From contig NC_015589.1 in NCBI RefSeq assembly GCF_000215085.1, positions 682,001-746,000 on the forward strand: DNA of 64,000 nucleotides. Reading direction: 5' to 3'. Every line of letters begins with the position of its first letter. Positions within the stretch are counted from its first letter, which is position 1. Source of the stretch: Desulforamulus ruminis DSM 2154. Its GTDB lineage: Bacteria; Bacillota; Desulfotomaculia; Desulfotomaculales; Desulfotomaculaceae. The position numbers and the translations under genes were made by a program. This document shows positions 48,902-62,741 of the stretch, in pieces. Under the pieces are notes generated by a model that saw only the letters and a list, made by a program, of their open reading frames with translations, was not told where the DNA came from and searched no databases.

Positions 48902-49069
48902 ATATTTAGAATCCTCACCTTAAATTATATTTAGGGAAATAAAAAATAATCTGTTAAATTATCATGGTACTGGTTTTTCTTTTTTAGAAGGAGTTTTACC
49001 CCTTTGTGGCTCTGCCACCAGGACATTTTTCATAGCCATATTAATTATACCTTTTTGGGAACAGAAAAA

Positions 49070-49111
49070 CAACAAAACAAAAGATTATGATTATAATCTG
49101 TTGTTTTGTTG
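49070..49111 (-). terminator. Long inverted repeat, probable minus-strand terminator
   Basis: 19-bp arms (49070-49088 and 49093-49111, one mismatch), rich in A/T, followed on the minus strand by TTTTT. It lies between a small minus-strand gene and the integrase. Confidence 0.6.
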
Positions 49112-49187
49112 ACTAATATAGACATAATGCAACCCGGGCCGGAAAGGGTATATAATCTGAGCCACAAGCATTACTAATGAGAACTGT

Positions 49188-49322
49188 TTATTTTTTTTCA
49201 CTATCCTTATGTGACTTATGTGATGTGTTTTTGGCTATGTTCTCGGCAGCCTTGTTTATATCGTAGCTGTCCCGATCATATTCTTTATTCTTAAGATCCG
49301 AAGTATCAAGGAAAGATAACAA
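49188..49322 (-). CDS. Small hydrophilic protein
   Basis: 44-aa frame with TTG start spaced correctly from GGAGGTG on the minus strand. The product is charged (DLKNKEYDRDSYDINKAAEN) and ends in a Lys/His-rich tail. No family recognised; support comes from the ribosome-binding site and the terminator-like repeat downstream. Confidence 0.5.
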   Translation of the reverse strand: MLSFLDTSDLKNKEYDRDSYDINKAAENIAKNTSHKSHKDSEKK

Positions 49323-49394
49323 TTAATAACACCTCCAAAAATATTATTACCTTGAAGAAAGTTACATATACTGAATTAACTGGAGGTGGGAGAT

Positions 49395-49802
49395 TTGGAC
49401 TTTAGCTTGATAAAAATACCAAAAGACATGGAAGAGGTTCTGAATATTATCTACCTTAAGGCGAAAAAGCTCAACCCCGGCCTTACAGAGAGTCTTTTCC
49501 TCCAACGTATTTTAGAAGAGTGGTTAGAGCCATATAAACGTGAAACTAGTGGATCTAATCAGCTTCCCAGAAGTAAGGTAGTTTTACGAAATAAAGTTAA
49601 AGCAGCACTTGAATTTTATGGAAAGGCACAAAAACAGGTTGCAAGAGATGTAGGGATTGACCGATCATATCTTTGCCAGATCGCTAATAATGCCCCCCAT
49701 GACTTATCTGTCAAAATTGCTTTTCTTATAGCTGACTCAATAGGATACCCTAAAGAAAAATTTAGAGAACTGTTTTATTTGGAGTCTGCTGAACAGGAAT
49801 AA
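49395..49802 (+). CDS. HTH DNA-binding protein
   Basis: 135-aa protein; TTG at 49395 has better spacing from GGAGG (49381-49385) than GTG 49386. The N-terminal 50 residues are RHH-like, and the C-terminal half holds a helix-turn-helix (QKQVARDVGIDRSYLCQIAN). Divergent from the recombinase genes, it could control them or the FtsK operon. Confidence 0.65.
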   Translation: MDFSLIKIPKDMEEVLNIIYLKAKKLNPGLTESLFLQRILEEWLEPYKRETSGSNQLPRSKVVLRNKVKAALEFYGKAQKQVARDVGIDRSYLCQIANNAPHDLSVKIAFLIADSIGYPKEKFRELFYLESAEQE

Positions 49803-49917
49803 CTTACCTGACAGCAGATTTATTTATTTTGTTATATTGGACAGCTTTTAAGGCATATGAAAATATTAAACCTTTAGGTTGAAAATTTTCAACATATAGG
49901 AGGTGATAAGAATAAGA

Positions 49918-51189
49918 ATGCGGCAGACCAACACCTTGGGTGAGGCTCTAGAAACCTTAAAATTAATTTGGAGACACCGGGAAGGTTTTAAATTCGGTGG
50001 TCGGCAGATAAATCAATTAAAGCTTTTTAAATGGCAGGTTGATCTGGAAAATAAAATTCCTGCTGCGGTACTTGATACAATTGACGTCCTTTATCCGGAG
50101 GGGAAACCACGGCCACTGTTGACAAAGAAAAATAGAATAGCCACAGGTTGGCACATGATTTTTACCCTACAGCCGGGAGTAACCTTCTCCGGAATATTAA
50201 GGCAGACAGAATTTTTCTCTGATGCTTGCCGGGCTCACGTAAGTATAGAGCTTAAGGGGGGGTTCATCCATATGACTGTCCATGATGCAAAGGTGGAAAC
50301 ATACTACCCCTACCTTTGGGACCCTACGCCTTATTTAGAAAAAATGGATTTACCCATTCCCATTGGCTACGGCCCTACCGGTCAGTTGAAAGTCATTGAC
50401 CTGGCGGATCTTCCACATATGAGGGTTGGGGGTACTACCTTCACTGGAAAGAGCAATTTTCTTCATAACCTGTTTATCTCGCTGGCAAAATTGCCCTATG
50501 TCCGTCTGGCAGTTATTGATTTAGCTCTACTGGAATTTAGCTACTCCAGGGGATTTGCTGCATTTGCAACTGAAACAATCACAGCTTTAAGACTTTTAAC
50601 TGCTTTGGAAAAGGAAATGCATCGTCGGCGACAGGTTCTTGAGGCAGTTGGAGTGGAGAAAATTCAGGAGTACCATTCTCTCATGGGTGAGGAGAGTAAA
50701 TATGATCTGCCCTATATCATTTTACTGATAGACGAATTCGCCTTCATGAATCCGGACAGTACCCCGGAGACAGGAGAAAAAGAAATCCGGAGACAGTGCC
50801 AGTCCATTTGTGCAAACCTTGCGGCCCTGGCGAGAAAAGTAGGTATTCACTTGATTCTTGCCATGCAGCGACCGGATATGAAAATCCTACCCGGCCAGTT
50901 AAAGGCAAATCTACCTGGAGCACTTTCCTTTAAAACCATTGATGACGTTAACTCTCAAATTATATTGGATAATAACGCAGCTGCAAACCTTCCGGATATT
51001 AAGGGCCGGGCTATTTGGCAGGTTGGGAACCGGCAGCAAGAAGTACAGGTAATGCATCTGCCGTTGAAAAAGGCAAGAATGATTCTAAATCAGCTTCGAG
51101 GGGTGAGGGATTCTGGGGAATGGATTAACTACGAGGCAAAAAGGCTCCCTCCGTCGAAAAGCTCAAGAAAGGCTTCTAAAACTCTATAA
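49918..51189 (+). CDS. FtsK/SpoIIIE-type DNA translocase
   Basis: 423-aa ATPase. Walker A GGTTFTGKSNF is at 171-181 and Walker B YIILLIDEFAFM follows; HLILAMQRPD is the typical third motif. Similar proteins act as coupling proteins in Tn916/ICEBs1 and as TraB-type double-strand DNA pumps in actinomycete plasmids. ATG 49918 is assumed; GTG 49903 overlaps the AGGAGG. The element also has VirD4, so two coupling-type ATPases are present. Confidence 0.88.
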   Translation: MRQTNTLGEALETLKLIWRHREGFKFGGRQINQLKLFKWQVDLENKIPAAVLDTIDVLYPEGKPRPLLTKKNRIATGWHMIFTLQPGVTFSGILRQTEFFSDACRAHVSIELKGGFIHMTVHDAKVETYYPYLWDPTPYLEKMDLPIPIGYGPTGQLKVIDLADLPHMRVGGTTFTGKSNFLHNLFISLAKLPYVRLAVIDLALLEFSYSRGFAAFATETITALRLLTALEKEMHRRRQVLEAVGVEKIQEYHSLMGEESKYDLPYIILLIDEFAFMNPDSTPETGEKEIRRQCQSICANLAALARKVGIHLILAMQRPDMKILPGQLKANLPGALSFKTIDDVNSQIILDNNAAANLPDIKGRAIWQVGNRQQEVQVMHLPLKKARMILNQLRGVRDSGEWINYEAKRLPPSKSSRKASKTL

Positions 51190-51220
51190 GTTAAAAAGGG
51201 TTAAACGGTGTCGATACTCT

Positions 51221-51706
51221 TTGACTGAGCCATATTGCTACTTTACAGGACAGCGTTATGGCCAATTAGAACATCTTTTAGATTTAAACTGGGTTTATGT
51301 ATGGCTAATAAATAAATTAAAATCCTGGGAGCAAATGCACTGTTTTCAATACGAGCTGCCATTAAAGATCCTGCAACCGGACGCTTTATGTGGAATATGG
51401 AACACCATTACCAAACGTATGAAATTTTATTTTCTAGAGATGGATCGCAGCAAGAATCATTTTGATAAAGTTGAAAAATATAATCGTTGGTACGAAGCGG
51501 ATGGATATATCGGTCAGTGGTGGTTGGATCAAACAGACCGGTTCCCGGTTATTCTGGTTGTCACACTTACTACCAGGCGTAAGGAAAAAATCATGGAAAA
51601 GATCGCAAAGGAAAACACGAATGGCCTGGAATTTAAGGTAATGTTATTAAGTGAAATAAAGGGGGGGCGCTATGATAATAACTGGTTTTTATGTGAGGGC
51701 CAATAA
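51221..51706 (+). CDS. Replication-relaxation (Replic_Relax) family protein, N-terminus apparently lost
   Basis: 161 aa from TTG 51221. GQLEHLLDLNWVYVWL, LQPDALCGI and FYFLEMDRSKNHFDKVEKY match the Replic_Relax family, in which an N-terminal winged helix normally comes first. The same frame is open further upstream to 51107 and encodes family-like sequence (RLLKLYKLKRVKRC) overlapping the ftsK end, but no ATG, GTG or TTG lies there. This suggests an N-terminal deletion, or an unusual start. Family role: rolling-circle or transfer replication. Confidence 0.6.
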   Translation: MTEPYCYFTGQRYGQLEHLLDLNWVYVWLINKLKSWEQMHCFQYELPLKILQPDALCGIWNTITKRMKFYFLEMDRSKNHFDKVEKYNRWYEADGYIGQWWLDQTDRFPVILVVTLTTRRKEKIMEKIAKENTNGLEFKVMLLSEIKGGRYDNNWFLCEGQ

Positions 51707-52061
51707 ATCCAGGATAATAAATAAAAGTAAAGTTAAAGACCTGATTAGGTTTTGCGGAACAGCACTGATAGCTGTCAATACAGCAGTGATCGGTAGCCCG
51801 AATCAGGTTATGGCCAGTACCGGCACTGACGTGATTGGCCGGATAGCCGGCACGACCTTTGGCCCTGGAGGCCCTGGGACGCTAATTATTAGCCTGCTAT
51901 TGATCGCTTTGGTTGGCTGGTTGTCCGGATATATCGCTCAGGCGTGTGGAAAAGGCCAGGTTGCCGGTATGATCCATGTAACCACCGTTTTCTCATGTAT
52001 TGCTTTGGTGGCGGAATCAGCATTAAAAGCACTTGGGTCACTAACAAAGTTTTTAGGATAG
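51672..52061 (+). CDS. Small membrane protein, VirB2-like in layout
   Basis: 129-aa protein with ATG behind AAAGGGGGGG. A possible signal region ends near VMAS, followed by two hydrophobic segments (LIISLLLIALVGWLSGYIA and VTTVFSCIALVAESAL) separated by a short basic loop. This is the layout of T4SS pilin-type proteins. Identity not certain. Confidence 0.55.
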   Translation: MIITGFYVRANKSRIINKSKVKDLIRFCGTALIAVNTAVIGSPNQVMASTGTDVIGRIAGTTFGPGGPGTLIISLLLIALVGWLSGYIAQACGKGQVAGMIHVTTVFSCIALVAESALKALGSLTKFLG

Positions 52062-52082
52062 CCCTTCGGGGCTTTTTCTTTT
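52060..52082 (+). terminator. Intrinsic terminator
   Basis: Stem AGCCC/GGGCT with loop TTCG and TTTTTCTTTTT. Confidence 0.82.
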
Positions 52083-52110
52083 TATAACACAATAGTGTGA
52101 ATTAGACTTC

Positions 52111-52158
52111 CATGCGTTAAGTCGTACGTTGATCCATACGTTAACCCATACGTGCAAA
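52111..52158. repeat. Four tandem 12-bp repeats
   Basis: CATGCGTTAAGT, CGTACGTTGATC, CATACGTTAACC, CATACGTGCAAA in exact 12-bp register. Consensus CATACGTTAAcc. About 100 bp before the promoter of structured RNA copy 2; operator-like. Short GATAGGGG repeats follow at about 52233-52255. Confidence 0.6.
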
Positions 52159-52255
52159 CAGGTAGTTTTGTTTGTCCAAGGCCATCAAATTACTAAAACA
52201 ATCGAGAAGGTTAGGAAGAGGCTGAGGGCAGTGGATAGGGGATAGGGGATAGGGA

Positions 52256-52285
52256 TTGACAGGATATTAAGTTGTCTGCTAAAAT
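52256..52285 (+). promoter_or_regulatory. Promoter of structured RNA copy 2
   Basis: TTGACA, 18-bp spacer, TAAAAT; same layout as the promoter of copy 1. Confidence 0.82.
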
Positions 52286-52291
52286 TTGGTT

Positions 52292-52496
52292 ACAGGGAAA
52301 GAACCTGTATCCGTTTCTCACCCATTGTGGTGACTTGACTCCTGAAATGGAGTGTACCGTTTGCCAGTTGGCATTTGCGGCAAAATTGCCGAGTGTAACT
52401 ATTAGGTTACACCCTTCCGTGGCAGAAGGAATTTTAAAGCCATAAGTTGCAATAAATTATTTGAAAGAATTTAAAGACCTTTTATAGGTCTTTTTG
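52292..52496 (+). ncRNA. Structured RNA of unknown class, copy 2
   Basis: About 205 nt. Stems: ACAGG/CCTGT, TCACC/GGTGA, ACTCC/GGAGT, TGCCA/TGGCA, CGGCAA/TTGCCG, GTGTAAC/GTTACAC, CCTTC/GAAGG and the terminator AAGACCT/AGGTCTT with T run. Compared with copy 1 the stems keep pairing although bases differ, while the linking segments (CCGTTTCTCACCC, GTGGTGACTTGA, GTACCGTTT, TGCCGAG) stay constant. It lacks the extra 3' stretch of copy 1. Confidence 0.78.
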
Positions 52497-52551
52497 TGTT
52501 TAAATTAAGGAAGTATACCGGGTTATCCCTGGTTCATATATTAGGCTTTCT

Positions 52552-52612
52552 ACGGCCACTGCGAGTTGTACGAGACGAATTTCCTGGACAGCTTTGCAGT
52601 GGCCGTTTTTTG
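52552..52612 (+). ncRNA. Hairpin RNA/terminator following structured RNA copy 2
   Basis: Perfect 11-bp stem ACGGCCACTGC/GCAGTGGCCGT followed by TTTTTTGC. Counterpart of the hairpin at 40754. Confidence 0.65.
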
Positions 52613-52669
52613 CTTAGGAAAGAAAACAAATGGTTATGCCCACCTAACGGGTAGAAAGGAGAGTAAAGA

Positions 52670-52798
52670 ATGATTATGTTCAAAATCAAGGGCAAATACC
52701 CGGGTCAACCCTGTGAGGACTTCGACGAGTTCGAGACAATGGCGGAAGCGGTTTCCATGCTTAGGGAGTACCGGATGGCCTTTGGCTCCGGATGGTAG
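52670..52798 (+). CDS. Small protein
   Basis: 42-aa frame, ATG behind AAAGGAGAG. MFKIKGKYPGQPCEDFDEFE and the later REYRMAFGSGW give a small mixed-charge protein with no known family. A terminator follows at 52865. Confidence 0.6.
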   Translation: MIMFKIKGKYPGQPCEDFDEFETMAEAVSMLREYRMAFGSGW

Positions 52799-52864
52799 CT
52801 CAAGATCACCAGGTAGCTCTACCGACTATGGAAAAGATTACGAAATAAAAGCTTCTTATTAGAG

Positions 52865-52893
52865 GATTGCTGCCCACTCCTTGGGCAGCAATC
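52865..52893. terminator. Hairpin between convergent genes
   Basis: Perfect 12-bp stem GATTGCTGCCCA/TGGGCAGCAATC with loop CTCCT. No strong T run on the plus strand, so termination may be weak. Confidence 0.65.
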
Positions 52894-52941
52894 AACATAC
52901 TAAAGCATGCATAGTCTCAATACTTAATCTTTATCATTGAT

Positions 52942-53407
52942 CTAAGCATGTTTTAGTATGTTGAATGACTGTCTTCTTAGCCTTACAAAATCAAGCGTAA
53001 CTTGGAAATGGTTAGCTAGTTCGACATCCTCCAATGTTTGTAATTCTAAGAACTCATTCTCTGGTATTAGAAAGTTTATAGCCCATATCTTGGCTTTGAG
53101 TTCATCTATACTTACATTCAATAAATCTGCCAGGCTTTCAGTTCCTGTTAATATATTTGATTTGGCCTCGGTAAAGTGATGGCCAACTTCTTCTGCCAGG
53201 GAACAGAGAAGCTTAATTGGGTCCAATTTCAGATTGGTGTTTAAAAGAATAAAATACTCAGGATCTTTTCACATAATAAAACCCATTTTGGTTCTTTTTG
53301 AAGGGATAGTAATAAATGTAAATTCCCTCTTTTTTTGCAATTGAGAATAAAGTAGATAGTCTTGTATCCAATATCAGATCCTCAATCCATGATACATTTA
53401 AAAACAT
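52942..53407 (-). pseudogene. immA: ImmA-like metalloprotease gene, frameshifted
   Basis: The minus strand starts at ATG 53407 and encodes MFLNVSWIEDLILDTRLSTL, then IYIYYYPFKKNQNGFYYVKRS, and meets a stop near 53258. The next frame continues with PEYFILLNTNLKLDPIKLLC, then LAEEVGHHFTEAKSNI (metal-binding HH of the ImmA/IrrE family) to 52942. A one-base frameshift at about 53258-53266 explains both. ImmA cuts ImmR-type repressors to release ICE genes; here it is probably inactive. It lies directly downstream of an Xre repressor gene, the ICEBs1 arrangement. Confidence 0.78.
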
Positions 53408-53468
53408 TAATGTCAGATAATTGAAATGGGCTAAAAATTAGGAAAACCACCTAATCGGTGGTAATGTA

Positions 53469-54083
53469 CTATTTTTCTTGATCTTTCTTTTTTTGTGCCA
53501 TCGCAGCCTCTATAGCCTTTTGAATGTCTTCACCCTCTTCAAGGGTAGGTATATGAAAAAAACGCTCACCTTCGTAGCTGGCTGCAAGGACTTCATTGTC
53601 TTCTTTAGTCATGACATCCTCAGAGGGAAGGATATCTCTAAGGACTTCTAGTATCTGAATTCTTTCTTCCAAGGATATGGGTTTGCCAGCGAGAGTAATC
53701 GGTTCTTTGGAATTAAATAAGTCTAGGATCTCGCGACTTAAAGTTTTTGTAGTACTCCGTTTTAGAAGCTGATTAACCTTCGAAAACTCAGTAACAATAT
53801 TTTTCACTAGATCTACTTGCGTAGAATATAGATTCTGAATTTCTGATATTAAAGGTTCTAAATTGACTGACTTTGTTTGTTTATTATTAGATTCATCAAA
53901 GAAATCAGATATAGTAATATCCAACACTCCGCAGATACGAGACAGAACATCTACGGTCGGCTGACTTTTACCTTGTTCGATATCTCTCAGATAAGATTGA
54001 GAAACACAAGATAATTTTGCAAGTTTGTTAGTGGAATATCCCTTTTTTTCTCTTAAATAAATAATCTTAGATGCAATATCCAT
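53469..54083 (-). CDS. Xre/ImmR-like repressor 1
   Basis: 204-aa regulator; ATG at 54083 behind GGTGG. N-terminal HTH (NKLAKLSCVSQSYLRDIEQG) and a C-terminal region including ITLAGKPISLEERIQILEVLRDIL that recurs in the repressor at 54943-55467. Divergent from a small Xre gene, with operator-like repeats between them, it forms a cI/cro-like switch. The downstream ImmA-like gene is broken. Confidence 0.85.
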   Translation of the reverse strand: MDIASKIIYLREKKGYSTNKLAKLSCVSQSYLRDIEQGKSQPTVDVLSRICGVLDITISDFFDESNNKQTKSVNLEPLISEIQNLYSTQVDLVKNIVTEFSKVNQLLKRSTTKTLSREILDLFNSKEPITLAGKPISLEERIQILEVLRDILPSEDVMTKEDNEVLAASYEGERFFHIPTLEEGEDIQKAIEAAMAQKKKDQEK

Positions 54084-54101
54084 AAAAACCACCAATTTAC
54101 T

Positions 54102-54184
54102 TTATCGACATACCGTTATTTTACCACAAAAAATCCATGCCAAATTAGCGACATACCATTGATTAATTATAGGTATACCGATAA
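54102..54184. promoter_or_regulatory. Operator repeats of Xre switch 1
   Basis: TTATCGACATACC (54102-54114), TTAGCGACATACC (54145-54157) and the inverted GGTATACCGATAA (54172-54184) lie between the divergent Xre genes. Confidence 0.7.
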
Positions 54185-54207
54185 AATGATATGAGGGGGG
54201 TGACTGT

Positions 54208-54420
54208 ATGCACTTAATAAAGGAACATAGAAAAAGCCTAGGTTGGACTCAAACTAAACTTGCACAAGCTTCAGGAGTATCACAAACATATATAAGCGAG
54301 ATTGAGGCTGGAAAGTTTCAACCCACAGTTAAGATAATGCAAAAGCTTGCTGCTAGCATGGGCATAACTGTCTCTGAGCTACTAGGAGAAAAGATGCCCC
54401 TTAAGGCAGCTGGCGAATAG
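54208..54420 (+). CDS. Small Xre-family regulator 1 (Cro-like)
   Basis: 70-aa HTH protein (QTKLAQASGVSQTYISEIEAG), ATG behind GAGGGGGGTG. Divergent from Xre repressor 1. Its tail (MPLKAAGE) resembles that of the second small Xre (TSNRAVGE). Confidence 0.85.
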   Translation: MHLIKEHRKSLGWTQTKLAQASGVSQTYISEIEAGKFQPTVKIMQKLAASMGITVSELLGEKMPLKAAGE

Positions 54421-54564
54421 AAATAAGTTTCAATCAACAAATTCTATCATAAAAATATAGATAGATTTGTAAAAAAATGTCGTTTGTAAATGATTTTACA
54501 TTTAGTACTGTAAAATGAGCAACCGTCGTCTGGCAGTAGGTCATTGGGAGGGGGTAGTGGTTCA

Positions 54565-54861
54565 ATGAAAATAATTCTGGAGAATGAGATGGAGAGGAAG
54601 GCATGGGATATCCTCCTTGAAGCCCATCATAAATGGGAAAAGAACCATTACAAGGAAGAAACGGACCAGATGATTGCGAAGGAGGCAGGGAAAAGGCTGT
54701 CCGAGGATTACGGTCCCGATGGACTGGATGTTATGGGAGTCTCTGAGGCGATGTATGTAAGTCGGTTATCATCCGAGTTAATGTCACAAGGAATTTCATA
54801 CAAGTTTATCATAAAAAAAACCAAAAGTTTGTCAAACTCGGTCCGCGTTCAATATCGTTGA
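54565..54861 (+). CDS. Small hypothetical protein, 3' end possibly rearranged
   Basis: 98 aa from ATG 54565 (GGGAGGGGGTAG upstream). Acidic and basic helices, no family. The last 20 residues are encoded by DNA that on the other strand carries a broken Xre gene, so the C-terminus may be a fusion product of a rearrangement. Confidence 0.5.
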   Translation: MKIILENEMERKAWDILLEAHHKWEKNHYKEETDQMIAKEAGKRLSEDYGPDGLDVMGVSEAMYVSRLSSELMSQGISYKFIIKKTKSLSNSVRVQYR

Positions 54862-54962
54862 TAAACGAGAGAGCAACACCGGATTTCCTAGATAATGCAC
54901 TTCGGCTAATACCATTTTTTTCTCGCAATTTCGATAATACGTTTACCGACTTCCATCTTCAT
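54809..54962 (-). pseudogene. Remnant of a third Xre regulator
   Basis: The minus strand encodes MKMEVGKRIIEIAR, then after one surplus A in a run of seven (near 54918) continues KNGISRSALSRKSGVALSFI and NDIERG, a typical HTH start, before hitting a stop at 54809. It overlaps the ends of both neighbouring genes and lacks most of its C-terminus. Confidence 0.65.
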
Positions 54963-55467
54963 CCTCTGGAGGGAGAATGGTGGTATTCAACGCCTTTAAT
55001 AACTGAACTCTTTCTTCCAATGTTATAGGTCTACCGGCAACGGTAAGAGTAGCATATTTTCTCTCAAGTAAATCTAAAAGTTCTATAATATCGGTTTTGT
55101 TAGTCCATAGTGTAGTTTTATTAACTCTGACGATCTCTTTCATAACAGAATTAATTAATTGCAATTGATCACTCGTCAATTTTTGTGCCAAGCTATTTAA
55201 CTGATTGAAATTATTATTTATAGGAAGTTCTTCTTTTCCTTTATTAGAAAAAAACTCTTCAAAGGTTATACCTAGTACAGAACAAATTTTAGAAAGCACC
55301 TCTAATTTCGGCAACCTTTTGCCTAATTCAATCAAGCTAATAAAACCTTGAGTTACACCAGATTCATTGGCCAGTCTATTTCTACTATAATTTTTAGCCT
55401 CTCTGAACTTTGTAAGGCGAGAGCCAATATCTTTTTTGAGTGTTGTAAGGCTGGAATCAATATCCAT
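54943..55467 (-). CDS. Xre/ImmR-like repressor 2
   Basis: 174-aa paralogue of repressor 1: HTH RNRLANESGVTQGFISLIELG and C-terminal LTVAGRPITLEERVQLLKAL. Divergent from the small Xre gene at 55604, with AT-rich operators between. No intact ImmA accompanies it. Confidence 0.83.
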   Translation of the reverse strand: MDIDSSLTTLKKDIGSRLTKFREAKNYSRNRLANESGVTQGFISLIELGKRLPKLEVLSKICSVLGITFEEFFSNKGKEELPINNNFNQLNSLAQKLTSDQLQLINSVMKEIVRVNKTTLWTNKTDIIELLDLLERKYATLTVAGRPITLEERVQLLKALNTTILPPEDEDGSR

Positions 55468-55489
55468 TAAGAATTAACCCTTTCAAACC

Positions 55490-55578
55490 ATATTACTATA
55501 AGTATTATAACAAATAAGATTATCAACAAAAATTATTACTTGAAGTATTGATATATATTACTTGGTGTAATATACTTA
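55490..55578. promoter_or_regulatory. Operator repeats of Xre switch 2
   Basis: Three related AT-rich sites: ATTACTATAAGTATTA, ATTACTTGAAGTATTG and ATTACTTGGTGTAATATA, between the divergent Xre genes. Confidence 0.6.
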
Positions 55579-55603
55579 AAGACAGTAGGAGGTGTGTTTC
55601 TCA

Positions 55604-55819
55604 ATGAAGCTTGATCTTAAAAAGTTACGTGAAGCAGCCGGGCTCTCCCAATCTGAACTTGCAAATAGGGTTGGTGTTACTCAAGGATATATTAGTCATA
55701 TTGAAAAAAACTTAAGAGCTCCTGCGTTAAAGATTTTGGACGCGCTTGCCCGGGAACTAAATGTTCATCCTACTGAATTAATCGTAAAAGAGACTTCCAA
55801 TAGAGCTGTAGGAGAGTAA
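55604..55819 (+). CDS. Small Xre-family regulator 2 (Cro-like)
   Basis: 71 aa from ATG 55604 (TAGGAGGTG upstream). HTH QSELANRVGVTQGYISHIEKN. After its stop, TTTATCATAAAAGAAATCCAA resembles the DNA near 54806, a further trace of duplication in this block. Confidence 0.85.
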   Translation: MKLDLKKLREAAGLSQSELANRVGVTQGYISHIEKNLRAPALKILDALARELNVHPTELIVKETSNRAVGE

Positions 55820-55919
55820 ACTATATTTTTTGACGATTTATTAAGTTTATCATAAAAGAAATCCAACTCATGTCAAATAGCGTCGAAGATGGGAAGACTC
55901 AATAACTGGAGGTGAAATT

Positions 55920-56693
55920 ATGGCTAAAAAAATCACTATATCAAACCAAAAAGGGGGGACTGCAAAAACCACCAGTGCCCTTAACCTGGGGGCCTGCTTG
56001 GCTGAGAAAGGCAAACAAGTTCTGTTGGTGGATTTTGACCCACAGGCCAACTTAACCCGAGGTCTGGGCATAATCCTAAAGGATGATGAACCTGGAATAG
56101 ATGAGTTTTTGAAGGAAGAATGCGAACATGAAGAAGCAATCCAAAATACAGAAATTGAAAAACTGTCTATTATACCCTCCCGCATTGATCTAGCTGGGGT
56201 TGAAGAGAACTTCTTAAGGGAACCTGGTCGTGAACAGCAGCTAAGAGTCGTCTTGGGCGATATTCAGGACCAATATGATTACATATTAATTGACCCACCG
56301 CCATCCTTGGGGCGACTTATGATGAATGCCCTAACTGCAGCCGACCAAGTGATTATTCCAGTGCCTGCCCAAATATATGCTGTAGAGGGACTGCAGCTAC
56401 TTTTGGAAACCATCGACAGTGTTAGGGCCAGGGTAAACCCCTATCTGGAAGATTGGGCTATCTTACATACCTTAATTGATTATAGGCGGAAAGAGGATCG
56501 GTTGATCATGCAGATGATTAAGGCGCGGTATGGAGCAAAGGTTCTAAATAGTGCTATTCGCGTAAACGCCAGGATTCCGGAGGCATCAAGAAAAGGCCAA
56601 GCTATTACCCAGTATGCTAAAAACTCTGTTGGAGAGAAGGAATATAGTAGTTGCGCGGAGGAACTGCTAAAAATTTACGAAGGAGTGGCATGA
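55920..56693 (+). CDS. parA: ParA/Soj partition ATPase
   Basis: 257-aa Walker ATPase: NQKGGTAKTTSALNLG with both lysines, VDFDPQANLTRGLG, YILIDPPPSLG. ATG behind CTGGAGGTG. It lies 1 bp before parB, so translation is coupled. It would segregate the element when it is extrachromosomal, or position it in the cell. Confidence 0.93.
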   Translation: MAKKITISNQKGGTAKTTSALNLGACLAEKGKQVLLVDFDPQANLTRGLGIILKDDEPGIDEFLKEECEHEEAIQNTEIEKLSIIPSRIDLAGVEENFLREPGREQQLRVVLGDIQDQYDYILIDPPPSLGRLMMNALTAADQVIIPVPAQIYAVEGLQLLLETIDSVRARVNPYLEDWAILHTLIDYRRKEDRLIMQMIKARYGAKVLNSAIRVNARIPEASRKGQAITQYAKNSVGEKEYSSCAEELLKIYEGVA

Positions 56694-56694
56694 T

Positions 56695-57534
56695 ATGGCG
56701 ACCCGGGGAACGAGCCATGTAGTGGATATGTTTTTGACCGGGACAGGGAAGCAAGAGAGAGGCAATTTAAGAAGAACCCGAATTTTGGAGCTTCCTATCG
56801 ATTCGATCACTCCGAACCCGGATCAGCCAAGAAAAAAATTTAATTTAGTCCAAATAATGGAATTGGCTGAGTCAATAAAAGAGCATGGAATCTTGCAGCC
56901 CATCGGAGTCCGAAAAGTTGAAACCGGACATCAGATTGTATATGGAGAACGCAGGTGGCGGGCGGCTGCGGTGGCCGGGATGGAAACAGTCCCTATCGTT
57001 ATAGTTCCCGAGGATGCAGATATACGAACAATTGCCATGATTGAAAATCTTCACCGTCAGGATCTTTCGGCCATAGAAAAAGCCATGGCAATAAAAGAGA
57101 TGATGCAGGCGGAGAAGCTAAGCATGGAGGCGGTTGGCCAAAAACTGGGACTAGGGAAAACCCGGGTTCATCAGCTGCTTAATATTCTAAAACTTCCTGA
57201 GGAATTGCTGGCGGAATTCTGCAGGGCGAATATGAATGAAACCCATGCGAGGGGTTTGTTAGCACTTAAAAAATTCCCTGATGCCCAAAAGGAGCTTTTT
57301 CAAAAAATTATCGACCAGGATCTTGCCGGGAACCAGGCTCTGATCTGGGCAGAAAACTATCTTAAAAAACTACCGTCGAAAACCCCGGTTAGTGATATGG
57401 TGAGTAAGTCCTTAAATAAACTTGCCAAAATCGAAAAACGATGGCTAAAGATAACTAACGAGGAAAGGGAACGCTATATAAAAGAATTGTTGCCCTTAAA
57501 AGAAAAAATAGATTATTTATTAGGTAATTCTTAA
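56695..57534 (+). CDS. parB: ParB centromere-binding CTPase
   Basis: 279-aa protein with ParB/Spo0J motifs: ITPNPDQPRKKF, GILQPIGVR, GERRWRAA (nucleotide-binding) and ENLHRQDLSAIEKAMA, then the HTH VGQKLGLGKTRVHQLLNIL. Its target is unknown; the repeated 16-bp palindrome at 33.9-43.5 kb is a candidate. ATG follows parA. Confidence 0.93.
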   Translation: MATRGTSHVVDMFLTGTGKQERGNLRRTRILELPIDSITPNPDQPRKKFNLVQIMELAESIKEHGILQPIGVRKVETGHQIVYGERRWRAAAVAGMETVPIVIVPEDADIRTIAMIENLHRQDLSAIEKAMAIKEMMQAEKLSMEAVGQKLGLGKTRVHQLLNILKLPEELLAEFCRANMNETHARGLLALKKFPDAQKELFQKIIDQDLAGNQALIWAENYLKKLPSKTPVSDMVSKSLNKLAKIEKRWLKITNEERERYIKELLPLKEKIDYLLGNS

Positions 57535-57550
57535 TATACCTGCCTGATGA

Positions 57551-57569
57551 GCCTGGGTCGTGCCCAGGC
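57551..57569 (+). promoter_or_regulatory. Hairpin after parB
   Basis: Stem GCCTGGG/CCCAGGC with loop TCGTG and no T run. It lies in the leader of the next gene. The following GAAACCGGGCCAA resembles GAAACTCGGCCAA after the hairpin at 46727-46753. Confidence 0.6.
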
Positions 57570-57624
57570 GAAACCGGGCCAACTGGTCGCAGGAAACGAA
57601 TATCTTAGAAATGGGGTGCTTTCT

Positions 57625-58827
57625 TTGAAAGCGGAACAGCAGTCCATATGTCCTCCCTATGCCCAAAAGATGAAAGACGATTATGAGGGCGAACCCAACG
57701 AAGGCAAAAAAGGAAATATAAGGAAAAGGAATGAAACAATACTAGCCGTTGCCAGATTGCTCATTCAGGATTGCTTAATAAAGCGAAGCGACATGGCAGA
57801 TGTTTGTGGAGTTAGCCCTCAAGAAATTTCATCCGCATTAAAAAAACTTCAAAAAACAGTTAACGATGGGCATACCATTATCGGGCTAAACAACGCAGAA
57901 CTAGAACTCCTTATAAACAGCCTGGAAAAAAGAAGGCGTGAGGAGGAAGCCCCAACAATAAAGATTGCAAAGCTACTTATTGAGGACTTTTTGATGGATC
58001 GCAGCAAAATCGCTGCTATCTGCGGAATAACGCCCCAAAAGGTATCCACAAACATAAAAAAGGTCAAAACAATGATGATGAGGGAAGATCCTTCTGCACT
58101 AAAACAGCTGGATATAGAAAGATTAAAAGCAAATATTGAGCTGCGAGAAGTATATCAGAAGAGTTTGCAAGATGAGCTTTTAAGAAATGTCGCTCGAATA
58201 TTATTAAAAAATTACCGGATTACTGGTAAAGAAATTGCACAGGAACTAAATATAAAGGAGCCGAATGTAAGTAGCGCAATCAAAAAAATTAAAATTAAGA
58301 TCGGCTATCAAGAAACTGGTGCTGAAGAAAAATTAACTGAAGCCCCCGGGATCATAGGGTTAACATCCGAAGAAAACGCGCAGTTACTCCGACTAATTAT
58401 AAATAGAGAGAAAGAAGCATTGCGGGAGAAGGAGCTGCGTCAAAAAGAAATAGCATTGGCAAAGGCGAGCCGAGAGAGCATGAAGGATATTGTCAGGCAA
58501 GCGAAGAGAAAGGCCAGTAAGAAGCCCGCGACAATTAGTGACATCGGCTTGGCAGAATGGAATGTAATGAGCTATGATGCGAAATCTGGCAAATTAGATT
58601 ACGGGTATATTTTTAAAGGGTGGAAAGAGCAGATATATTCTCCCTCAAAAGATGACAAAGTAAAGACTATTGCTCCGGGACTACCAAGGGATTTTCCGAA
58701 ACGCTTACCCAAAAATGAAATGTCAATACAACAGGACCATAAGATAGATCCTTCTTATTTAATACCTTCAAAAGCCTCGGGGACAGTAGCTGGTAGAAAA
58801 CGTATCAATGGCATGAGGCTTACTTAG
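57625..58827 (+). CDS. Protein with three HTH repeats, downstream of ParB
   Basis: 400 aa from TTG 57625 (GGGGTG 7 bp upstream); ATG 57547 would translate the leader hairpin. Three similar units occur: ILAVARLLIQDCLIKRSDMA then DVCGVSPQEISSALKKL; IKIAKLLIEDFLMDRSKIAA then ICGITPQKVSTNIKKV; VARILLKNYRITGKEIAQEL then NIKEPNVSSAIKKI. Each looks like a helix-turn-helix. A basic helical region and a C-terminal domain follow. No family recognised; it may bind DNA near the partition site. Confidence 0.6.
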   Translation: MKAEQQSICPPYAQKMKDDYEGEPNEGKKGNIRKRNETILAVARLLIQDCLIKRSDMADVCGVSPQEISSALKKLQKTVNDGHTIIGLNNAELELLINSLEKRRREEEAPTIKIAKLLIEDFLMDRSKIAAICGITPQKVSTNIKKVKTMMMREDPSALKQLDIERLKANIELREVYQKSLQDELLRNVARILLKNYRITGKEIAQELNIKEPNVSSAIKKIKIKIGYQETGAEEKLTEAPGIIGLTSEENAQLLRLIINREKEALREKELRQKEIALAKASRESMKDIVRQAKRKASKKPATISDIGLAEWNVMSYDAKSGKLDYGYIFKGWKEQIYSPSKDDKVKTIAPGLPRDFPKRLPKNEMSIQQDHKIDPSYLIPSKASGTVAGRKRINGMRLT

Positions 58828-58834
58828 AGAAACA

Positions 58835-58858
58835 AGTCGGGCTCCGGGAGGAGCGACG
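58835..58858 (+). promoter_or_regulatory. Hairpin upstream of the DUF7352-like gene
   Basis: GTCGGGCTCC pairing with GGAGCGAC, loop GGGA; no T run. Another of the non-terminator hairpins between genes. Confidence 0.5.
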
Positions 58859-58879
58859 TGTACTGTGAGGAGAATTTTA

Positions 58880-59152
58880 ATGAAAAGAATTTTCAAATAT
58901 GAATTGGAAGTTGCGGGTTTTCAAGTAGTAAACATCCAAAGTGAAGCTATACTAAGTGTTCAGGAACAAAATGAAAAAATTGTGGTTTATGCCTTAGTAG
59001 ACACCGATCTACCTCCAAACAAATATGAATTTGGAATAATTGGTACTGGGCACCCGATTACATTTGATATAAATAAATTTTGTTTCCTGGGTACTGTAAA
59101 AATGTATGGCGGCGGTTTGATGTTTCACGTCTTTTATAGAAAACTAGAATAG
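58880..59152 (+). CDS. DUF7352-like small protein
   Basis: 90 aa from ATG 58880, behind TGAGGAG. FKYELEVAGFQVV, ILSVQEQNEKIVVYALVD and GTGHPI...FLGTV...LMFHVFY match a small family common on phages and mobile elements. Function unknown. Confidence 0.65.
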   Translation: MKRIFKYELEVAGFQVVNIQSEAILSVQEQNEKIVVYALVDTDLPPNKYEFGIIGTGHPITFDINKFCFLGTVKMYGGGLMFHVFYRKLE

Positions 59153-59187
59153 CGTTGTGTCATACTTCAACTGAGAGTTCACCACGT

Positions 59188-59220
59188 AAAAATCGTCTAC
59201 TAAGGTCGGCGATTTTTATT
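59188..59220 (+). terminator. Terminator in duplicated leader, copy 1
   Basis: AAAATCG/CGATTTT stem with an inner TAAGG loop region, followed by T run. Copy 2 is at 59853-59886. Confidence 0.7.
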
Positions 59221-59300
59221 TTGTAAGGGAAATAAATCCCCTGCAATCTTAATATGCTATGAAAAAGACTTTCTAAGTAAAAATGGGAGTGAGTGATTTT

Positions 59301-59750
59301 ATGGAAAAGAAAATAAATGAAGAAATGGAAGGATACCCTGAAAATATTAAGGTTGCAGTAGGGGAACATCTTAAGAAACATAATAACTCTAAAATAATTC
59401 ACACTTCTAAAACAGAAGCAAGGATTTATAAAGATCAATCAAAGGGAGTAACTACCTATAAGGTTTTCGTGGAAGATGGCCATTCTTATATTGTGTTTAA
59501 GTGTAGTGAAAATTTTCTCCCGGATTTCGAGGAAGTTATGAAAAATACCATGACTAAAGATGAAATCAATGTGTTTTTAGATCATTCACTGGAGTTTGAG
59601 AATTTTACTACTGTTCAACAAGTAGCTAAAAAGCTAGATAAAATCAAACAGTTAGCGTCTATGGCTAAGAAGGATAACCATCCTGAATCTTACATCGAAT
59701 GGGAGTTAAAAAATATTCTAAAAGGTAAAGAATCAATTGCAGATCGATAG
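59301..59750 (+). CDS. Hypothetical protein
   Basis: 149 aa from ATG 59301 (GGGAGTGAG upstream). It begins MEKKINEEMEGYPENIKVAV, similar to the 42-aa product at 59962 (EKKIKVEIPDTVYEKIV). Mostly alpha-helical and charged; no family recognised. Confidence 0.6.
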   Translation: MEKKINEEMEGYPENIKVAVGEHLKKHNNSKIIHTSKTEARIYKDQSKGVTTYKVFVEDGHSYIVFKCSENFLPDFEEVMKNTMTKDEINVFLDHSLEFENFTTVQQVAKKLDKIKQLASMAKKDNHPESYIEWELKNILKGKESIADR

Positions 59751-59852
59751 TGCGTAGCCCTTTAACGTGTTACTAAGGGATAAAGGTGGGGTGTTTTGGG
59801 GATTATTGAACCGGCCTAGCTACTAGTAGTCTTCATACATACGGCGCCATGT

Positions 59853-59886
59853 AAAAATCGTCGACTAAGGTCGGCGATTTTTTTTG
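59853..59886 (+). terminator. Terminator in duplicated leader, copy 2
   Basis: AAAATCG/CGATTTT with inner GAC/GTC pairing and a run of eight T. Confidence 0.75.
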
Positions 59887-59961
59887 TAAGGGCAATTAAC
59901 AATATATCGGCAACCTTAATATCCTATGGTAAAGATTTTTACGAAAATGGGGGTGATTTTT

Positions 59962-60090
59962 TTGGAAAAGAAAATAAAGGTAGAGATACCCGATACAGTT
60001 TACGAAAAGATTGTGCACTCTCTCATAAAATCTGTTCAAAACAAGCAAAAGCAAGTTCCTTTAGTACGAAGCCAAAAGATAAGTGGGTAA
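59962..60090 (+). CDS. 42-aa protein upstream of the serine recombinase
   Basis: TTG behind GGGGGTGAT. Basic, helical product (EKKIKVEIPDTVYEKIVHSL and a Lys/Gln-rich end). It follows a second copy of the leader at 59188 and resembles the start of the protein at 59301, so it may be a truncated duplicate. Its small size and position also allow a recombination directionality factor; no motif supports this. Confidence 0.5.
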   Translation: MEKKIKVEIPDTVYEKIVHSLIKSVQNKQKQVPLVRSQKISG

Positions 60091-60104
60091 AACCCACCCT
60101 TTTT
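60083..60104 (+). terminator. Terminator before the serine recombinase
   Basis: Stem GTGGGT/ACCCAC with loop AAA, then CCTTTTTT. It separates the recombinase from upstream transcription, leaving about 30 bp for a promoter and ribosome-binding site. Confidence 0.82.
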
Positions 60105-60137
60105 TGATTATATATGTGATGAGGGTGAGGATATCTT

Positions 60138-61796
60138 ATGCATTTAACGCCGCAAGTTCCCGACCTTTCATTTTTGGTAAATACAGCGGGCATTGCCCCA
60201 CCTTTGTTTTTACCGCCGCAAGTTTCAACCCGGTTGGAAACATATAAAGATCCAAAGGAAACATTAGACGAGAAAAACATTCCTGTTGGTGGATATATTA
60301 GGATATCGACCAGAAAGGACAGCCAAAAAAAAAGTATAGAAAACCAAAAGAAGTACATTTTACAGTGGGCCGAAATGAACGGCTATAATATCGTTCGTTT
60401 CTATATTGATGTGAAATCCGGAGAGTATATGTACCTGCGGAATGATATGATGCAGATGTACGAAGACGTCAAATCAGGAGTTATTAAAGGCCTGATTTGT
60501 AAAGAGATATCTAGGACATCTAGGGATGTAATGGATATCTTAGAATTAAAAAGAACCTTGGTTGGGTATGGGGCTTTTTTTTTATCGATAAAAGAAAACT
60601 ATGATAGTAGAACAGATGATGATGAATTCCTGCTTATTATTTATGCGGCATTAGCTCAGAAGGAGCGAAAAACAACTAGTTCCAGAGTAAAAATCACCCA
60701 GGTGTTAAAGGCTAAGGAGGGGAAAACCAATGTACCCCTCCCAGCCTTCGGATACATGCTCTCCGAAGACAAACAGTACTTGGTAAAGAATCCCAAGACA
60801 GCCCCGATCTATCTTGAGATTGTCAATAAATTTCTAGATGGATGGGGTCAATTAAAAATTGCAAAGTGGTTGAATGCCAATAATATTCCTACCAGAAGGA
60901 AAGGCAAATGGTCCACAAACGCAGTAAAGACTGTACTGAGTAACCCGGTTTATCTAGGGATCACAATTTATAATGCTACAACTTTGATTAGAGATCCTCA
61001 GGGAAAACAGAAAAGGGTAGTTAGACCCCTGGAGGAATGGATAATTAGAGAGGACACTCATGAAGCCTTAATAACCCTAGAAGTGTTTGAAAAAATTCGA
61101 TCTCTCATGAAAATGAGATCTGAAAAACATAAGCATGAGTGGAACTGCGACAAGAAATACCTTGGATCTGGTATCCTTCGGTGTGCTGTTTGCAAAGGGA
61201 AAATCTATGGCACCCGATTTGAAAAGAAGAAAAACAATAAAAATAAGCCTAAAGAGAAAGAGTATTTCTATCGATATCGATGTGCAGGAAGTAATGGAAA
61301 ATGTGATAGTATAAAATACTGGCATATGGATATGATTGATCAAAATCTTATGTCTTTTATTAGCACAATATTTTCCGATAAAGAAAGGCTATTCACTTTC
61401 ATAAAAAGAAATATTGATTTATATACCAAAAACTTCGATGAGTTAGTTAAAAAGAGAGAAGAATTGAGGAAAAAATTAGAAAAAAATGCTCATGCCGTTA
61501 GAAAACAGCAAATTGCCTATGAAGGAGATCTTATAAACGACGGGGAATACAAGGAAAGAATATATGAGCTAAGAGTAGAGAAGACGATACTGCAGAAGCA
61601 AATTGATGATCTGAATAGATCCCTTGAAAAAGTAGATTTACTTGAGGAAAAATGTCTAAAAATTTACAATGAAGTGAATTCAGCATTGCAAAACCTAATT
61701 GACTTACCTTTTGAAGATCAAGTGAACCTGATTAATAATTTTTCTGCTATTTACATCGATAAAAATGGGGAGATTGTTGATATAGAGTTCGACTGA
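60138..61796 (+). CDS. Large serine recombinase (integrase)
   Basis: 552-aa site-specific recombinase that probably inserts and excises the element. Catalytic Ser57 lies in GGYIRISTRKDS. The Recombinase domain includes PLPAFGYMLSEDKQYL and NPVYLGITIYN, then a zinc ribbon (LRCAVCKGK...YRCAG) and a long coiled coil. An extra 50 residues precede the catalytic domain (MHLTPQVPDLSFLV...). ATG behind GAGGGTGAGG. The stop lies about 25 bp from the junction with cotJC. Confidence 0.93.
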   Translation: MHLTPQVPDLSFLVNTAGIAPPLFLPPQVSTRLETYKDPKETLDEKNIPVGGYIRISTRKDSQKKSIENQKKYILQWAEMNGYNIVRFYIDVKSGEYMYLRNDMMQMYEDVKSGVIKGLICKEISRTSRDVMDILELKRTLVGYGAFFLSIKENYDSRTDDDEFLLIIYAALAQKERKTTSSRVKITQVLKAKEGKTNVPLPAFGYMLSEDKQYLVKNPKTAPIYLEIVNKFLDGWGQLKIAKWLNANNIPTRRKGKWSTNAVKTVLSNPVYLGITIYNATTLIRDPQGKQKRVVRPLEEWIIREDTHEALITLEVFEKIRSLMKMRSEKHKHEWNCDKKYLGSGILRCAVCKGKIYGTRFEKKKNNKNKPKEKEYFYRYRCAGSNGKCDSIKYWHMDMIDQNLMSFISTIFSDKERLFTFIKRNIDLYTKNFDELVKKREELRKKLEKNAHAVRKQQIAYEGDLINDGEYKERIYELRVEKTILQKQIDDLNRSLEKVDLLEEKCLKIYNEVNSALQNLIDLPFEDQVNLINNFSAIYIDKNGEIVDIEFD

Positions 61797-61918
61797 CGAC
61801 CACGACGACAAAAGAATAAATCCGGTCCGCCGTATTGGGTGATAACGTATTTGGCCATGCGGGGGTCGGGACCGGAAACTCTTACCGGGATCTCCAGCTT
61901 CTTTTCATAAATCCACAT
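61751..61918 (-). pseudogene. cotJC: cotJC, 5' part, interrupted by the element
   Basis: On the minus strand ATG 61918 opens MWIYEKKLEIPVRVSGPDPR and continues MAKYVITQYGGPD, the N-terminus of spore-coat protein CotJC (a Mn-catalase-like protein). After Asp33 (about 61820) the sequence no longer fits: the family continues GELAAALRY, here LFFCRRG follows and the frame ends at 61751 inside the recombinase gene. The rest of cotJC must lie beyond the left end of the element or be lost. cotJB and cotJA are intact upstream. Confidence 0.85.
61815..61845. other. Right attachment site (attR), approximate
   Basis: The junction between element and host is placed at about 61820 by the end of cotJC homology. 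The crossover probably lies in CCGGTCCGCCGTATTGG (codons for QYGGP). The exact core needs the left junction. Confidence 0.65.
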
Positions 61919-61936: not shown

Positions 61937-62200
61937 TTAATATTTAATTTCCCAGGGCCAGGGACTATCGATCCATTTCCAGCAATTCTGCGGGTTGGGA
62001 GAAAAACCGAAGTTTAATAAGGGGCCGTAGATCTGCTCATAATTTCTTACACAATTCATTAATTCCTGGTGTATCTGATTGTACATAGCCAGGGCCTGTT
62101 GGTCATTGGGGTGGGTATCTAAAAATAAATTTAGTTCCACCGCCGCAAATTCCAATTGCTGTATTTGCAGGAGCATTTGCGCTTGTTGTCTGTTATCCAC
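61937..62200 (-). CDS. cotJB: Spore-coat protein CotJB
   Basis: 87 aa from GTG 62200, which is 8 bp after GGAGG (GTG 62209 is an alternative). MLLQIQQLEFAAVELNLFLD, THPNDQQALAMYNQI and YGPLLNFGF are typical of CotJB. Expressed in the mother cell in Bacillus as part of cotJABC. It lies 18 bp before the cotJC remnant. Confidence 0.9.
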   Translation of the reverse strand: MDNRQQAQMLLQIQQLEFAAVELNLFLDTHPNDQQALAMYNQIHQELMNCVRNYEQIYGPLLNFGFSPNPQNCWKWIDSPWPWEIKY

Positions 62201-62214
62201 AATACTCACCTCCG

Positions 62215-62493
62215 TTAGTAGGGACAGGGTCGATATAAATCAGGAAAGAGAGTTCCCCTTTTTAATGCCTCGGAGCAATTAAATACAGCCCCAAACTGCT
62301 GAATAGGCACATAGGCACGGGCTAATTCCAATCCGGGCTGCATTCCGGGGTAACAACCGGGTCCCATGCCTGGCATCGGTTGCACAAAGGGACCGGGCAT
62401 TCCCGGGGGCATCATTCCTTGTTTGCCCGGGGCAGGACCCATCAGGGGGACTGCCTGCAGCGGTTGTTCCTGGTGTTTATCTCTTGTAAACAA
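62215..62493 (-). CDS. cotJA: Spore-coat-associated protein CotJA
   Basis: TTG at 62493 is preferred because GGAGG lies 7 bp upstream; ATG 62514 would put that site inside the gene. A Pro/Met/Gly-rich N-terminal half is followed by ELARAYVPIQQFGAVFN and KRGTLFPDLYRPCPY, the conserved CotJA end. First gene of the cotJ operon. On the minus strand an AATACAAT motif near 62530 resembles a sporulation sigma-E -10 box, but no convincing -35 was found. Confidence 0.9.
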   Translation of the reverse strand: MFTRDKHQEQPLQAVPLMGPAPGKQGMMPPGMPGPFVQPMPGMGPGCYPGMQPGLELARAYVPIQQFGAVFNCSEALKRGTLFPDLYRPCPY

Positions 62494-62741
62494 AGGGCAT
62501 ACCTCCAAATTCATTGGAATTGTATTTTACAACAATCTATGGTAACAAATGGAAAAATGTTCCGGAAAGGCGGTTTTTTTCTAGGGGGACACCTGCATTT
62601 TTAATTTATGCATCCATTGAGCTGCCGTTAATTGTAGAAAAATTGGGTAAACTAAATTCGTATTGGAGAAGGGTATTTGGTCCGGGGGGAGTAATATCTT
62701 CATAATTAAACACAGGATCAATATGGAGGGAGGGAGCAAGT

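Follow-up and report, generated by a model that had tools for sequence, protein, structure and literature searches.

The spore-coat gene cotJC of Desulforamulus ruminis is split by a 67.9-kb ICE-like element whose excision would rejoin it

The stretch of DNA analysed here, called the window, comprises 64,000 nucleotides of Desulforamulus ruminis DSM 2154 (C1:682001-746000, C1 being the only contig of the genome, 3,969,014 bp) and carries at its right end, on the minus strand, the spore-coat genes cotJA and cotJB directly upstream of the start of cotJC at 61918. An earlier, sequence-only reading had described cotJA and cotJB as intact, in agreement with their Pfam matches, and cotJC as leaving its family after codon 33, about 25 bp from the end of a large serine recombinase gene; the Mn_catalase match does cover model positions 1-33, and the distance is 23 bp from the last family-matching codon and 30 bp from the crossover. 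The features on which the analysis rests are the following (window coordinates unless preceded by C1):

1..61826, no strand: part of the element inside the window (whole element C1:675955-743826, 67,874 bp)
59899..59925, plus strand: sigma-K-like promoter candidate, AC - 17 - AATATCCT, a pattern match
59962..60090, plus strand: conserved small ORF of 42 aa starting with TTG, immediately 5' of the recombinase gene, candidate directionality factor
60138..61796, plus strand: large serine recombinase, 552 aa, of the site-A cotJC integrase family (Pfam Resolvase and Recombinase)
61805..61850, minus strand: right attachment site, one half cotJC and the other half element, from junction comparison
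61827..61828, minus strand: crossover dinucleotide GG of the right junction, common to 19/19 paired site-A ends
61827..61918, minus strand: cotJC 5' piece, codons 1-31 including the GG crossover dinucleotide, from family match and junction comparison
61937..62209, minus strand: cotJB, intact (Pfam CotJB, E 2e-31)
62215..62514, minus strand: cotJA, intact (Pfam CotJA, E 6e-16)
C1:675499-675966, minus strand: cotJC 3' piece, about 6 kb left of the window, at the left end of the element

The Resolvase and Recombinase domains of the window recombinase exceed the Pfam cut-off, and its zinc ribbon (E 1e-4, 23 bits) lies just under the cut-off of 25.3 bits. The truncated cotJC frame (61751-61918, minus strand) reads MWIYEKKLEIPVRVSGPDPRMAKYVITQYGGPD and then departs from the CotJC family, its non-family tail reading LFFCRRGR.... 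In a family search of the same genome, the 5' piece was matched at C1:743820-743918, and Mn_catalase model positions 29-196 were found at C1:675499-675960 on the minus strand, the strand that is common to both pieces. This second match is the 3' piece, which reads GGPEGELSASLRYL (DNA ...QKSGGPEGELSASLRYLNMRYT...); the sequence-only reading had expected the rest of the gene at the left junction, starting with GELAAA, and it is present there in frame, with GELSAS as its start. The crossover was placed at the common GG of the second glycine codon (at the left junction C1:675953-675954, outside the window), and precise recombination at this GG gives an in-frame joined CotJC of 190 residues, 166 of which are identical in the unbroken CotJC, of equal length, encoded by a genome of the same genus (G003). 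The cotJC of G003 shares its neighbour genes with the D. ruminis locus, and the DNA of G003 aligns to both flanks of the element with an overlap of 11 bp at the core, so that it represents the empty site. On these sequence grounds the split-gene structure is close to certain.

An intact cotJC elsewhere in the genome, which the sequence-only reading had named as an argument against itself, did not come to light: the only full-length relative found, at C1:56002-56550, belongs to a different Mn-catalase subfamily, is unlinked to cotJA and cotJB and was excluded on these grounds, its match to a CotJC profile having an E value of 6e-36 versus 2e-87 for the long piece of the split gene. A further weak match at C1:2800339-2800623, by eye a ferritin-like ORF of 105 aa, was also rejected as CotJC. 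The paralogous full-length Mn-catalase might substitute for CotJC.

The genes carried by the element include, by Pfam, a type IV secretion ATPase (AAA_10, read as VirB4-like) together with a VirD4/TraG-like coupling protein (T4SS-DNA_transf), a lytic transglycosylase/M23 protein, a TadA-like ATPase, T2SSF, ParA/ParB, an FtsK-like protein and a tyrosine recombinase. On account of genes of this kind the element is called ICE-like, and we infer that it is conjugative. Neither a relaxase nor phage structural families were detected with Pfam among the 28 element ORFs scanned, which make up some of its genes, all to the right of its left 6 kb. Other parts of the window deserve mention in their own right. 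Two long ORFs (18730-20361 and 25227-26951) have a near-identical first part, KRWSIWGILVCLFLVPGTAHAGPKANEEV..., and are probably copies of a duplicated, secreted protein inside the element; at 23057-23921, a Phd/YefM-type antitoxin followed by a PIN-domain protein, recognised by eye, likely forms a toxin-antitoxin pair of the element; and at 46831-48901 the tyrosine recombinase adjoins a fragment with a match to the Recombinase domain known from serine recombinases but none to a resolvase domain.

The same architecture was read at the same codon in other genomes, and this position, codon 31, is called site A. Among 19 site-A elements with both ends read, all have GG at that codon on both ends and all give a joined frame that is open and of the CotJC type. 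The point of integration would be the GG dinucleotide inside the conserved QYGGP(D/E)GEL stretch. The element arms around the GG form an inverted repeat in these 19 elements, with 14-20 of 22 positions matching; in the attP reconstituted for the window element the figure is 14/22. In 13 of the 19 pairs a single contig contains both pieces, in 12 of these 13 on the same strand; in the other six genomes (G002, G024, G034, G070, G089, G103) the pieces are on different contigs. The exception is G378 (L118, L119), whose pieces are on opposite strands, 483 kb apart, with the recombinase beside the 5' piece; simple excision therefore cannot rejoin them, which calls for either an inversion as the rejoining step or a rearrangement subsequent to the insertion. 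Of twelve site-A 5' pieces examined for stops, eleven run into an in-frame stop within about 25 codons past the junction, in five cases as the second codon after the match, and the twelfth stops at a contig end. The 3' end of the recombinase gene faces the junction, its neighbour being the 5' piece in some elements and the 3' piece in others, from which it follows that both orientations occur. At one locus, L096, the recombinase gene starts 3.8 kb away from the closest cotJC piece, and just past this gene, near 11584, stands an attP-like symmetric sequence, GAAGTTCTGCCCGCCGAACTTC, which is perhaps a second attachment site.

The frequency of such splits was assessed by searching 113 genomes of the order with a CotJC profile built from 19 intact proteins. 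At E 0.01, 90 genomes were matched, and hand-sorting among the matches listed gave 58 contiguous genes (G056, G094, G106 and G108 being counted as contiguous only from a contig edge), 23 split genes, three unclear cases (G021, G007, G096) and six genomes with paralogues or weak matches only (G018, G046, G060, G061, G068, G075). cotJC is therefore split, among the matches listed, in 23 of the 84 genomes of the order that have it (G000, G002, G008, G016, G024, G030, G032, G034, G038, G053, G064, G066, G067, G070, G071, G073, G077, G089, G099, G100, G102, G103, G112); in G064 only the 5' piece is present among these matches. The splits fall at three sites: site A in 13 genomes, site B (codons 54-59, core AAGGGNNTGNTNAC) also in 13, and site C (codons 62-65) in two. 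At least two sites are split in G016 and G070 (A and B), in G034, and perhaps in G102, which is possibly split at A and B, its 5' piece stopping at a contig end and the middle piece being absent among the matches listed. In G034 (L053, L072, L054) all three sites are occupied and the gene lies in four pieces, namely codons 1-33, 28-59, 54-65 and 62-183, of which the first is on a separate contig and the third consists only of AKGVLTDIGTEE; the three junctions have three different large serine recombinases, one each.

In the same 113 genomes the control gene spoIVA was matched in 104, at full length in 102, and no split of spoIVA by an element was found in these 104 genomes, the two exceptions having no element (two adjoining frames in G007; in G079 a frame break with the remainder directly after it). 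Likewise, none of 28 nearly full-length Mn-catalase paralogues among the matches listed is split. A wider sample of 398 genomes of the phylum gave a cotJC match in 255, the best matches listed being mostly contiguous; 29 genomes were then hand-picked, mostly for their split look, so that no rate can be derived from them, and 13 of these were read. Further cotJC splits were found among the 13, and the fetched loci of 12 of them contain a large serine recombinase, the exception being G300. They include G398, with three cotJC pieces inside 10 kb, G309, with three pieces cut near codons 67 and 136 and the last on another contig, and G407 (L116, L117), a genome of 6.5 Mb in which two pieces lie 53 kb apart and a recombinase 1.5 kb from one of them. 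The G407 recombinase shares 52.6% identity with the enzyme of Paenibacillus phage phiIBB_P123, and for this reason active phage may use cotJC too. These data also bear on the view that the right end of the window reflects an assembly artefact or a chance resemblance. No point in its support was found, the genome is a single contig that contains the matching half, and the same architecture appears in many separate assemblies, isolates among them; a chance match was rejected, given that the same split, core and recombinase family recur in other genomes. We therefore give this explanation practically no weight.

In the order, a recombinase lies within about 110 bp of a junction in 10 of the 13 site-A genomes, and one is present in the loci fetched for 12 of the 13 site-B genomes. 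An alignment of site-A recombinases was scanned against the genome_contigs collection (84,980 species) and gave 27 loci from named genomes, 24 of them with a clear cotJC piece within about 4 kb. Six of the 27 (L089 to L094) had supplied rows of the query alignment owing to their position at cotJC; without them the proportion is 18/21. The loci without a clear piece are L095, whose contig ends in the recombinase, L113, where the recombinase is fragmented, and L114, which has a weak cotJC match (E 0.0014) at a contig end. Isolates with a site-A locus include Pelotomaculum terephthalicicum JT, Heliobacterium mobile, Heliobacterium chlorum, Heliorestis acidaminivorans, Ruminiclostridium hungatei, R. 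papyrosolvens, R. cellobioparum (two records), R. sufflavum and Pseudobacteroides cellulosolvens. As far as these sequences go, the family of the window recombinase occurs almost only at site A of cotJC. Phage records hold 722 matches to the window recombinase and no close relative, all having less than 60% identity and the best-ranked 24.5%. In R. papyrosolvens (L104), a recombinase lies beside each of two cotJC pieces (1-33 and 21-58), and a third serine recombinase was observed about 7 kb further on. The other elements in cotJC are far smaller than that of D. ruminis: 7.3 kb in P. terephthalicicum, 4.6 kb at site A in H. mobile and H. chlorum, where the gene has an additional split, and about 3.2 kb in the two minimal cases (L105 1631-4858; L103 404-3569), and the element of L105 contains almost only the recombinase, an ORF of 34 aa and one of 344 aa.

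Are the separated pieces still under selection as parts of a functional gene? No stop codons occur in the pieces examined, namely 17 from the 5' side of site A (codons 2-31), 12 from its 3' side (34-178) and 13 from the 3' side of sites B/C (64-178). Of 22 pairs of pieces compared, one consisted of identical sequences and two had reached saturation. The remaining 19 yielded finite dN/dS values from 0 to 0.17, with dS above 1 in several comparisons; the value is at most 0.08 in 17 of the 19, and the higher ones are 0.14 (G008/G066) and 0.17 (G000/G030, a short piece). For G071/G073, the long piece has a dS of 0.24 and a dN/dS of 0.03; for G034/G070, the long piece has a dS of 0.31 and a dN/dS of 0.06, and the short piece a dN/dS of 0.05. 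Five pairs of intact cotJC gave 0.02 and 0.04, the other three being saturated. The recombinases have a dN/dS of 0.07-0.18 over nine pairs with finite dS, and at site B their divergence (dS 0.241 and dN/dS 0.18 for G071/G073; dS 0.378 and dN/dS 0.14 for G034/G070) is in step with that of cotJC, so that in these pairs the split looks older than the species and appears to have been kept functional. In other pairs the two divergences disagree: recombinase dS is 0.60 versus 0.30 for the short cotJC piece at site A of G034/G070, 0.439 versus 0.12 for the short piece in the Heliobacterium pair, 0.655 versus 0.36 for the short piece in L103/L105, and 0.445 in G030/G103 versus 0.91 for the long piece and 0.37 for the short one. 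Some insertions may therefore postdate the separation of the species.

The simplest competing view is that of ordinary site-specific integration, in which cotJC is just the attB of the element, CotJC has become dispensable to the host and nothing but the recent date of the insertions has preserved the halves. Large serine integrases commonly sit in host genes that they disrupt (PMC10083194; the papers cited here by PMC number were available in part, and statements on them refer to those parts), the D. ruminis genome has the other Mn-catalase described above, and in some pairs, such as G030/G103, the recombinase is less diverged than the gene. On the other side stand the absence of stops from all 42 pieces and, in G071/G073 and in G034/G070 at site B, a long-piece dN/dS of 0.03-0.06 with a similar dS of the recombinase, which together indicate that the split is old and that gene and recombinase have both been maintained in those pairs. 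Decay of an unneeded gene was set aside, given the low dN/dS of the pieces and the maintenance of the recombinases, and integration into a dispensable gene is in our opinion quite improbable. The strong purifying selection on most pieces speaks for restoration over decay: the split gene probably still serves its host and is rejoined, and rejoining in some cells is likely from selection.

Assemblies that contain more than one form of the locus bear on the same question. In G108 (L075, L076, L077), three contigs have an exact common stretch of 141 bp, covering codons 13-59; the first reaches it from the upstream side and stops, the second leads on into an intact cotJC and the third into an element. 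In G067, site A is crossed by a contig that carries codons 1-49, and another contains the element and codons 30-183, with 62 bp in common, and G112 also has sequence crossing the site; both forms may be present in these two genomes. The contigs of G108 and G067 fit a population with both forms, a strain mixture being possible as an alternative. It was observed separately that the contig ends of G108 coincide with attachment sites and that similar contig ends at the sites exist in G021 and G102.

If the gene is rejoined, the next question is when. The small ORF at 59962-60090 has no Pfam match, and its pattern around IP-x-x-VYE-x-L-x-x-LIK is conserved directly upstream of site-A recombinases. 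By script, candidates with a called length of 32-80 aa were obtained for 16 of 26 elements, and in several others (Rhun, Rpap, Rcel, Pcel, Hchl) one was picked by eye. Even the L105 element, at about 3.2 kb the smallest observed, retains the small ORF, which is therefore the best candidate for the directionality factor. The promoter search followed the consensus form of sigma-K promoters, and its pattern, AC-N16/17-[CA]ATAnnnT, had been relaxed after inspecting the sequences. It covered 20 of 21 chosen elements (L099, where the start string is absent, was omitted), and the pattern was found upstream of the small ORF in 10 of the 20, the window included; Hmob, Hchl, Hacid, G002, G016, G032, L096, L103, L105 and Pcel lack it. 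In 1,000 dinucleotide shuffles the mean was 0.445 and the maximum three, and among 895 background gene starts taken from the fetched loci, with overlaps between loci retained, 43 have the pattern. With the unrelaxed -10 (CATAnnnT), the counts are 4/20 elements versus 24/895 background gene starts. No consistent promoter was found upstream of the site-B and site-C recombinases, and a search for sigma-E-type promoters upstream of 19 site-A recombinases matched one element. In the window, the stretches 59230-59283 and 59905-59962, CAATCTTAATATGCTATG and CAACCTTAATATCCTATGG, are similar and precede an ORF of 155 aa at 59283 and the small ORF, respectively, which suggests a duplicated promoter. Full-length sigK and spoIVA, the only two spore-formation genes sought, are both present in the genome. 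In C. difficile, sigma-E and sigma-K have promoters similar to their B. subtilis counterparts, and mother-cell sigma-K is required for the operons that encode CotCB and CotD, two homologues of CotJC (PMC3789822).

Restoration of cotJC could also proceed outside any developmental control, with excision at a random low rate or upon induction of the element and the spores making use of the joined copies. This is suggested by the constitutive recombinases of SPbeta and of the C. difficile skin element (PMC5595907), by the resemblance of element genes to conjugation genes and by the presence of both forms in the G108 assembly; the sigma-K-like motif before small ORF and recombinase in half of the elements scanned, and the mother-cell sigma-K control of CotCB and CotD in C. 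difficile (PMC3789822), tell against it, and we regard it as unlikely. We hold it to be highly probable, instead, that an ICE-like element sits in cotJC and that its excision rejoins the gene, an event that would be switched on late in the mother cell. In this mechanism, the 67.9-kb element would have integrated by means of the large serine recombinase at codon 31 of the coat Mn-catalase gene, and recombination between the two junctions would yield a circle of the element and a rejoined cotJC with no base gained or lost. Excision would belong to a late stage of sporulation in the mother cell, where the sigma-K-like promoter would drive joint production of the recombinase and of a small directionality factor; this mother-cell timing is plausible and is something that we infer. 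Excision in the terminal mother cell would be free of cost to the element because the chromosome of the forespore keeps it, and the same mother-cell logic would explain how different recombinase families settled at several sites of cotJC.

A broader reading, towards which we lean with more reserve, is that cotJC serves as a general docking gene of spore formers, used by several recombinase families whose elements are excised one after another in each mother cell during sporulation. If so, the coat catalase would be assembled by splicing at the DNA level from up to four pieces separated by up to three elements, and the elements of about 3.2 kb would have shrunk to near self-removing inserts, a DNA counterpart of inteins. 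It becomes testable now why mobile elements choose genes that are used only in a doomed mother cell, and whether the host benefits. Furthermore, the loci provide a family in which large serine recombinases, putative directionality factors and attachment sites of near symmetry come naturally paired.

Several known systems resemble this arrangement, among them vfbin, which targets spoVFB. As in the skin element in sigK of B. subtilis and C. difficile, a large serine recombinase accompanies a sporulation gene in two parts that excision restores; the target of skin is however a sigma factor and not a structural coat catalase, sigK is full length here, and, unlike skin, the D. ruminis element is ICE-like and has its small ORF directly before the recombinase gene. 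The directionality factor of C. difficile skin is likewise a small protein, of 72 aa, made in the mother cell (PMC5025042). SPbeta in spsM of B. subtilis is also a mobile element inserted in a spore-envelope gene, which its excision rebuilds (PMC4191935), but gene and cargo differ, and no phage structural family appeared in the element ORFs scanned here. Sporulation genes likewise harbour gin (in gerE of Bacillus cereus ATCC10987), vfbin and yin (in yabG), which are non-phage (gin) or prophage-like (PMC5595907, PMC10747680); the splitting of one gene at multiple sites by multiple elements is not described in the available text, from which "cotJ" and "catalase" are absent in PMC10747680 and "catalase" in PMC5595907. 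The attachment site of the phi027 prophage of C. difficile lies beside cotG, a CotJC homologue (PMC11222575, PMC12122855); there, unlike here, the gene is described as adjacent to the prophage or as downstream of attR, and the available text claims no split or reconstitution. With ICEs that use serine integrases the D. ruminis element shares VirB4- and VirD4/TraG-like proteins, a peptidoglycan hydrolase and ParAB, and differs from them by having no relaxase among the ORFs scanned; its transfer is putative. No report of a cotJC split and rebuilt by excision was found in the literature searched, which was available in part and did not extend to most subscription journals. Sporulation genes known to be rebuilt by excision include sigK, spsM, gerE, yabG and the target of vfbin (PMC4191935, PMC5595907, PMC10747680), a short list that cotJC would join if it is rejoined. 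The published cases, in the text available, are single ones, whereas the arrangement in cotJC is a frequent, multi-site hot spot in many genera, cultivable isolates included. Among sporulation rearrangements of the skin and SPbeta type, it is a variant with a new target and with striking recurrence.
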